Assembly (NCBI GenBank): GCA_021790515.1
Contig: JAJYHV010000026.1
Location: 1-64,000 of the forward strand
Length of the DNA stretch: 64,000 bases
Direction of reading: 5' to 3'
Source of the DNA: Pseudomonadota bacterium
GTDB taxonomy: Bacteria; Pseudomonadota; Gammaproteobacteria; Burkholderiales; Sulfuriferulaceae
Shown here: positions 1 to 751 of the stretch, piece after piece
Layout: every line of letters begins with the position of its first letter
Numbering within the stretch: the stretch's first letter is position 1
The notes under the pieces: generated by a model
Seen by the model: only the letters and a program-made list of their open reading frames with translations
Told to the model about the DNA's origin: nothing
The model's database searches: none
Made by a program: the position numbers and the translations under genes

Positions 1-543
1 AGCTTTGGATCGGTTCAGCCGACGCTCAGGGATTGCAACACGAACTTCCTTATGCGGGAATTTATCTCTAACTGTCCGAATTGCCGGTGCTAGGTCTGTA
101 TCCGCAGTAAATATGATGGCTTTGTCGAAAGCGTCTTCATAAGCCAGCTTCAACAAGTGCAGCGCAATGTTGACGTCACTTTCTTTTTCCTCATGCGTAT
201 CCCACTCATGTTGGCAGCTAGGGCATTTACGAGGTTTTTTCTTGAACGTCCCCATAATCGGGATGACACCTGTTGATTTCAACACGGCCACATAGTCGCG
301 GTGTCTATCTTGTACATCTTGTGGAACCCAGCCAGCATAAGCTGAAAAATAATAAGCGCCAGCTAGGCTGTCTTGCGCGGGATGAATGAGAGCCTTGCTG
401 AGTGCAGAAATGTCTAACCACTTGAGATAATGTTTTTTGGGGCGGGTAGGTCGTTTGGTTTTTAGATCAAAATTCAATTCGTGAATGGAATGATAAAGAT
501 TGAATCCATCTACGAAAACGATAACTCGATTTTGATTCGCCAA
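1..543 (-). CDS. NYN-domain (LabA/DUF88-like) putative RNase with zinc-ribbon-like CPSCxxxW insert; 3' end runs off the window
   Basis: Reverse-strand reading from a TTG at 543 (AGGGGCG upstream): (M)ANQNRVIVFVDGFNLYHSIHELNFDL...AYYFSAYAGW...KKKPRKCPSCQHEWDTHEEKESDVNIALHLLKLAYEDAFDKAIIFTADTDLAPAIR...; the VDGFNL / SDVNIAL / TADTDLAPAI motifs are typical of NYN proteins. Confidence 0.85.
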   Translation of the reverse strand, partial: MANQNRVIVFVDGFNLYHSIHELNFDLKTKRPTRPKKHYLKWLDISALSKALIHPAQDSLAGAYYFSAYAGWVPQDVQDRHRDYVAVLKSTGVIPIMGTFKKKPRKCPSCQHEWDTHEEKESDVNIALHLLKLAYEDAFDKAIIFTADTDLAPAIRTVRDKFPHKEVRVAIPERRLNRSKA

Positions 544-555
544 GTTCGCCCCTAT

Positions 556-712
556 AAATGAAACCGGCCGCGCAGGCGGCCGGGACCTCGGGAATTACCC
601 TCGGGATGATTGCCGACACCGCAGGGCGTCGGGACCAACAGCGATGCTGTTGGGATGACTCACCCCGGCAACGCTGGTCACCGGGACTCTTCGGAATGCC
701 GAGGAGGATGAT
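556..712 (-). ncRNA. Tandem hairpin array (3 units of about 49-53 nt, two hairpins each) upstream of the NYN gene; candidate structured RNA
   Basis: Minus strand: TCATCC-[hp]-GTCCC-[hp] repeated three times. The second hairpins are GGTGAC-CAGC-GTTGCC, GACGCC-CTGC-GGTGTC and GGCCGC-CTGC-GCGGCC; stems vary while linkers are conserved. Confidence 0.6.
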
Positions 713-721
713 ATGACTGTA

Positions 722-751
722 ATTATGCAGCAATTGCTAGCAAAAAGTAAA
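722..751 (-). promoter_or_regulatory. Putative sigma70 promoter for hairpin array/NYN unit
   Basis: Minus strand TTTACT (746-751) - 18 nt - CATAAT (722-727), just upstream of the array. Confidence 0.4.

Follow-up and report, generated by a model that had tools for sequence, protein, structure and literature searches.

The window, by which we mean the whole 64,000-nt stretch of DNA analysed, carries on its minus strand a putative RNA array and, 3' of it, an NYN-domain RNase gene of the HEC-09 family. The promoter TTTACT-18-CATAAT reported in the first-pass annotation is present: the -35 element TTTACT lies at 746..751 and the -10 element CATAAT, after an 18-bp spacer, at 722..727, and the relatives L047 and L048 have TTGACA-17-GATAAT at the matching position. 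The three two-hairpin units claimed there were likewise found. Unit 1 (665..716) consists of a leader ending in TCATC, hairpin 1 CTCCTCGG-CATT-CCGAAGAG, the linker TC and hairpin 2 CCGGTGAC-CAGC-GTTGCCGG; unit 2 (613..663) of TCATC, hairpin 1 CCAACAGC-ATC-GCTGTTGG, TC and hairpin 2 CCGACGCC-CTGC-GGTGTCGG; and unit 3 (564..614) of TCATC, a hairpin 1 with tandem GA mismatches, TC and hairpin 2 CCGGCCGC-CTGC-GCGGCCGG. All three units were matched by the covariance model R2 described below, and units 1 and 2 are also supported by covariation. Hairpin 2 of unit 3 is predicted to serve also as the terminator or attenuator stem, and it is followed, in line with the annotated order of terminator-like tract and NYN start, by the imperfect U-tract TTTCATTT of an attenuating terminator (556..563), a Shine-Dalgarno sequence AGGGG (549..553) and the TTG start codon at 543. 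The promoter elements, the U-tract and the Shine-Dalgarno sequence were assigned from the sequence alone. The motif TTTCATT 3' of hairpin 2 is also found in the distant loci L018, L021 and L031.

Some details of the stems had to be revised. The second hairpins do have the 4-nt loops CAGC, CTGC and CTGC given earlier, but their stems are 8 bp and not 6 bp long once the conserved CC..GG is counted; the first hairpins of units 1 and 2 also exist, with stems of 8 bp (one mismatch in unit 1) instead of about 7 bp. Hairpin 1 of unit 3 reads CC-[GA/GA]-GGG, and its tandem purine mismatches are kept in relatives. Across the window, L047, L048 and L049 the mismatch takes the forms GA/GA, GA/AA and AA/GA within a conserved surrounding stem, and it is likely a structural or protein-binding motif.

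The NYN gene occupies 1..543, with 181 codons present, and is interrupted by the contig start; the rest lies on contig G000:C53 (C53:2-127 onward). Window positions 1-126 are the same as G000:C53:2-127, and since this 126-nt end inside the NYN gene is common to two contigs, the assembly breaks within the gene, possibly at a graph branch or because of strain variation. A short minus-strand ORF at 1066-1275 (MANVIIHPAGVIASLLSGVSVAGIAMANDINPNQLQHWIRQ..), upstream of the array, resembles by eye the helix-turn-helix part of an IS66/IS3-type transposition protein, and may be a degenerate, IS-like mobile-element remnant.

The array strand of the window folds with -75.2 kcal/mol (z = -5.1 against dinucleotide shuffles). 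No match at the Rfam gathering threshold was obtained for the window array or for the NYN-adjacent elements of 15 homologous loci, and at low thresholds the window array gave chance matches only. A dispersed repeat in its own genome was ruled out, the array being confined to a single locus there. Since a DNA-level search of 100 relatives returned no second copy, a protein-led search was needed.

The window ORF matches Pfam NYN with E = 2.7e-11, which bears out the annotated NYN-domain protein 3' of the array; NYN was the only Pfam match above the cut-off, and no ToxN-family model matched the ORF. The protein also matches HEC-09 of PADLOC (PDLC04163, E = 6e-44), as do its homologues (E = 5e-25 to 6e-98). 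The name presumably expands to 'Hma-embedded candidate', and PADLOC lists HEC-09 among the candidates around the Hma system. The Hma system itself has been described (PMC8565338). The catalytic aspartates D14, D124, D149 and D151 (L047 numbering) are invariant in 46 NYN proteins, as are C108 and C111. An AlphaFold model of the L047 protein, which is 76% identical to the window NYN, was obtained with a pLDDT of 94.4; a fold search with it gave one significant PDB match, the NYN protein VPA0982 (2QIP, E = 4e-8), while full-length phmmer against the PDB gave none. On the evidence of this model, the window NYN protein is not ToxN-like.

NYN homologues occur on 323 plasmid records and in the Hma islands of L010, L016, L024 and L025, and gave two weak matches in a phage collection. 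In plasmid records H32 and H57, genes of the HEC-09 family are misannotated as 6-hydroxy-3-succinoylpyridine hydroxylase/monooxygenase. At L044 and L028 the HEC-09 NYN domains lie within ORFs of nearly 500 aa, so that NYN is probably fused to another domain there; L044 has a type B-like hairpin RNA (see below) upstream.

To follow the RNA, HEC-09 homologues were collected by scanning 85,488 species genomes, in addition to relatives, plasmids and samples at class and phylum level. At nearly every HEC-09 locus a two-hairpin element with a U-run adjoins the NYN start, so the recurrence of the RNA next to NYN genes, a check proposed with the annotation, holds well beyond the relatives of the window; an NYN gene with an adjoining hairpin RNA that has its own predicted promoter and terminator was found in more than a dozen bacterial phyla. 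We quantified this with a scan, blind to sequence motifs, for two hairpins and a U-run within 170 nt 5' of the start, applied to 112 NYN loci with enough upstream sequence and to 256 control upstreams of other genes in the same loci. A score of at least 40 was reached by 95 of the 112 NYN upstreams versus 9 of the 256 controls, and a score of at least 46 by 72/112 versus 0/256; dinucleotide shuffles reached 40 in 1.3% of cases and never 44 or more. Several misses are due to an element lying outside the 170-nt limit or to a bulged hairpin (L020, L022, L023, L025, L031 and L102). The upstreams of L019, L124 and perhaps L104 have no clear element.

The element occurs in two orientations. In type A the RNA is co-directional with NYN, in the order promoter, leader usually ending in ATCC, hairpin 1, linker, hairpin 2 with U-run, ribosome-binding site and NYN, and the terminator-like hairpin 2 with its U-run stands 10-35 nt upstream of the NYN start codon. 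This type is found in the window, on E. coli and Leptospira plasmids, and in Chlamydiae, Planctomycetes, Alphaproteobacteria and others. In type B the RNA lies on the strand opposite NYN, divergent from it and with a promoter between the two, in the order leader AACCCC, hairpin 1, CC, hairpin 2 (GACGCC..GGCGTT) and TTTCTTT; its carriers are Thermus, many Gamma- and Betaproteobacteria, Bacteroidota, Chlorobi and some Actinobacteria. Thermus oshimai and Caldimonas manganoxidans are two examples. Sigma-70 promoters on the RNA strand score at least 9 in 63% of elements versus 12% of shuffles, and the distance from promoter to hairpin 1 is fixed across loci (median 14-16 nt). Bacteroidota promoters have the consensus TTG-N-TAnnTTTG, and this sequence stands at the RNA-promoter position in 7/9 Bacteroidota copies and 0/10 others (null 0.003). 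A promoter on the RNA strand in both types, and of the Bacteroidota kind in Bacteroidota, points to a separate small RNA and not just an NYN 5' UTR; in the absence of transcript data, it favours independent transcription of the RNA over a mere leader of the NYN mRNA.

The conservation of structure was assessed with two covariance models. R1, built from 13 type B loci and searched against about 615 kb, recovered about 25 held-out copies with E from 1e-8 to 1e-20, nearly all of which lie on the strand opposite NYN and immediately 5' of it; tandem copies in L020, L096, L111 and L119 are among them. The compensatory stem changes that had been put forward as a further check are strong in these copies: in 40 distinct R1 copies 13 of 18 pairs changed on both sides, with a covariation score of 0.450 versus 0.182 for shuffled and at most 0.154 for slid alignments. 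For the units of the window clade (n = 12) the figures are 11/16 pairs and 0.543 versus 0.172 shuffled, although that alignment leans towards structure because it was set by hand to the hairpins. Covariation thus supports two nested hairpins, under a model without pseudoknots. R2, built from window-clade units only with the other loci unseen, located the held-out type A element, correctly placed and on the expected strand, in 12 further loci (E from 4e-6 to 0.46; best at L031, 4e-6, L075, 2e-5, and L064, 1e-4), and gave two off-site matches below E = 0.5. A MAFFT alignment of mixed type A sequences yielded no consensus structure and was replaced by geometry-matched units (A6) and by the scan with control genes. 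R1 weakly matches the type A elements of L063 and L090, hinting that types A and B may be homologous.

The RNA type also follows the protein: mapped on a phylogeny of 109 NYN proteins, the A/B label requires one change, versus 28 when labels are shuffled. Three units are present in each of the window, L047, L048 and L049, which group together on that tree with support. Arrays of 2-3 units occur in L020, L096, L111 and L119, and most other loci have a single unit and no array. The array on the E. coli plasmid pRHB09-C13_5 (L158) consists of a 33-nt hairpin sequence repeated in tandem (2.6 copies, 96%) and of a fourth, diverged hairpin; a strong terminator and then NYN follow it.

The link between RNA and NYN is not exclusive, as orphan copies of the RNA exist. 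Counting only strong R1 matches in two genome samples, with weaker, chance-level ones left out, we obtained 14 genomes; the match lies beside NYN in eight (G696, G712, G667, G101, G187, G195, G200 and G221) and has no NYN nearby in six (G718, G828, G746, G664, G037 and G347). RNA without NYN is thus common and NYN without RNA rare, which is the pattern an antitoxin would leave behind; the orphans also mean that the RNA may have another role or may outlast the loss of NYN. Three orphan type B RNAs (L127, L128 and L161) adjoin DUF3883 helicase genes of Hma-like islands that lack NYN, those of L127 and L161 with an intact promoter; they could reflect an NYN gene that was lost or an RNA with a role of its own. 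Other orphan type B copies lie near unrelated genes (L130, L131 and L162).

These comparisons establish the RNA as a distinct conserved element with its own predicted promoter and terminator, paired with HEC-09 NYN genes across a very wide bacterial range. The inference of the first-pass annotation, that the array is the cognate RNA (antitoxin, guide or substrate) of the NYN nuclease in a module resembling type III toxin-antitoxin (TA) systems, gains support from the recurrence beside NYN, from the covariation and from the RNA type tracking NYN phylogeny, within the limits that the role of the RNA, be it antitoxin, substrate or RNP partner, is inferred and that orphans exist. Of the refuting outcomes named there, neither a lack of conservation next to NYN genes nor a lack of covariation was observed. 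We regard it as reasonably probable, though far from settled, that the locus is a type III TA-like RNA-nuclease module with an unrelated nuclease and RNA, in which the RNA restrains NYN; this reading is drawn from sequence, with no transcript, binding, toxicity or phage data for any member. One part would be a structured RNA of small size, which here comprises three two-hairpin units in tandem, is transcribed from a promoter of its own and ends in a leaky terminator; the other would be a PIN-like NYN endoribonuclease expressed by read-through of that terminator. The abundant RNA would use its conserved CC/CCC leader and linker, which are unpaired and flank the hairpins, to bind NYN and keep it inactive; the nuclease may in addition process the tandem precursor into single units. 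Once the supply of RNA stops, because the plasmid is lost or a phage shuts off host transcription, the unstable RNA would decay and the freed NYN would cut RNA. The outcome would be plasmid maintenance, abortive infection or both, as known from type III TA systems. The active site is demonstrably intact, while binding, inhibition, processing and a role in plasmid maintenance or phage defence are inferences; antitoxic inhibition in particular is inferred by analogy, from the architecture and the plasmid and defence context only. Operon attenuation, as in type III TA, does not apply to the type B RNAs, since these lie divergent from NYN.

The alternative that survives best, although we consider it unlikely, is a ribonucleoprotein effector for defence, in which the RNA would not inhibit the nuclease but serve it permanently as a cofactor for folding, targeting or activation. 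The single two-hairpin RNA of most loci, the divergent orientation of type B, the co-diversification of RNA type and NYN protein, and the presence of L010, L016, L024 and L025, and of the L127 RNA alone, in Hma-like defence islands would all suit such a particle. However, the RNA has no variable guide-like segment, an antitoxin would better explain the occurrence on plasmids and the tandem arrays, and ssRNA cleavage by the NYN nuclease associated with CRISPR in B. fragilis proceeds with no RNA cofactor (PMC11346440). What varies in the RNA are its self-complementary stems, and for this reason a guide RNA was itself considered unlikely and rejected.

RNase E and RNase III limit their own synthesis via their own mRNA, and the hairpins could similarly be an attenuator or cleavage site in the 5' UTR of the NYN mRNA. 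The co-directional type A element, with its terminator-like hairpin shortly before the start codon, allows this, but the similar type B element has its own promoter on the opposite strand and orphan copies have no NYN downstream, so we hold autoregulation to be improbable. Least plausible, and very improbable, is that the RNA is a dispersed repeat or sRNA gene brought next to NYN by shared mobile elements or defence islands without direct interaction: the orphans near unrelated genes and the IS-like remnant just upstream of the window array are compatible with hitch-hiking, but an association over many phyla in both types, with one change on the NYN tree and fixed gene spacing, is not expected from it.

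We further suggest, tentatively and with rather less confidence than for the TA-like module, that the loci represent a very widespread new RNA-protein class of NYN with a dedicated two-hairpin RNA (operonic, tandem or divergent), whose orphan RNAs work in trans, either as decoys against addiction or as an additional layer of regulation in Hma defence islands. If true, this would be a new toxin-antitoxin or defence family in which both protein and RNA are unrelated to ToxIN. Few functions are known in bacteria for the large family of NYN proteins, and HEC-09 figures among candidate defence genes with no mechanism attached; a conserved cognate RNA offers a testable one. The two-hairpin RNA adds a non-coding RNA family missing from Rfam, and nucleases with an RNA antitoxin or RNA partner would extend to many phyla. 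A defence finder in which HEC-09 is represented by the protein alone would overlook half of the system, and experiments with only the NYN gene may fail or mislead.

The pairing of NYN with a hairpin RNA looks undescribed. PADLOC models only the protein of HEC-09, no RNA partner for it is described in PMC8565338 or PMC9252829, and we found no NYN-associated antitoxin or partner RNA in the open-access full-text literature (bioRxiv not included), so a report unseen by us is possible. The CRISPR-associated ribonuclease of B. fragilis resembles the window protein in its NYN fold, three conserved aspartates, RNase activity and a structure close to 2QIP, but belongs to a type III CRISPR locus with a different gene context and a proposed role in crRNA trimming (PMC11346440). 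Type III TA loci consist of a promoter, RNA repeats, a Rho-independent terminator and an endoribonuclease gene (PMC5086642), and the NYN module shares with ToxIN, CptIN and TenpIN a promoter, tandem repeats of about 33-52 nt, a terminator and an RNase gene, as well as a patchy distribution over plasmids and chromosomes. Tandem repeats upstream of the RNase gene are seen in the window, three relatives and L158, while the upstream promoter and the Rho-independent terminator between RNA and NYN are confined to type A, type B being divergent. In contrast to type III TA systems, the nuclease is a PIN-like NYN protein and not of the ToxN fold, with no homology to ToxN, CptN or TenpN seen in the Pfam and fold searches; the unit has two hairpins and no known pseudoknot; single-unit and divergent-promoter versions exist; and antitoxin activity is only inferred. 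AvcID, a type III TA system with a dC deaminase as toxin, differs from the NYN module in its enzyme and in its RNA, AvcI, a single RNA of about 300 nt with no terminator predicted before the toxin gene (PMC10511110). It nevertheless shows that an enzyme other than ToxN can be kept in check by a non-coding RNA and released once phage stops host transcription (PMC10511110), and the layout of pRHB09-C13_5 is the one that defines type III TA loci (PMC5086642).
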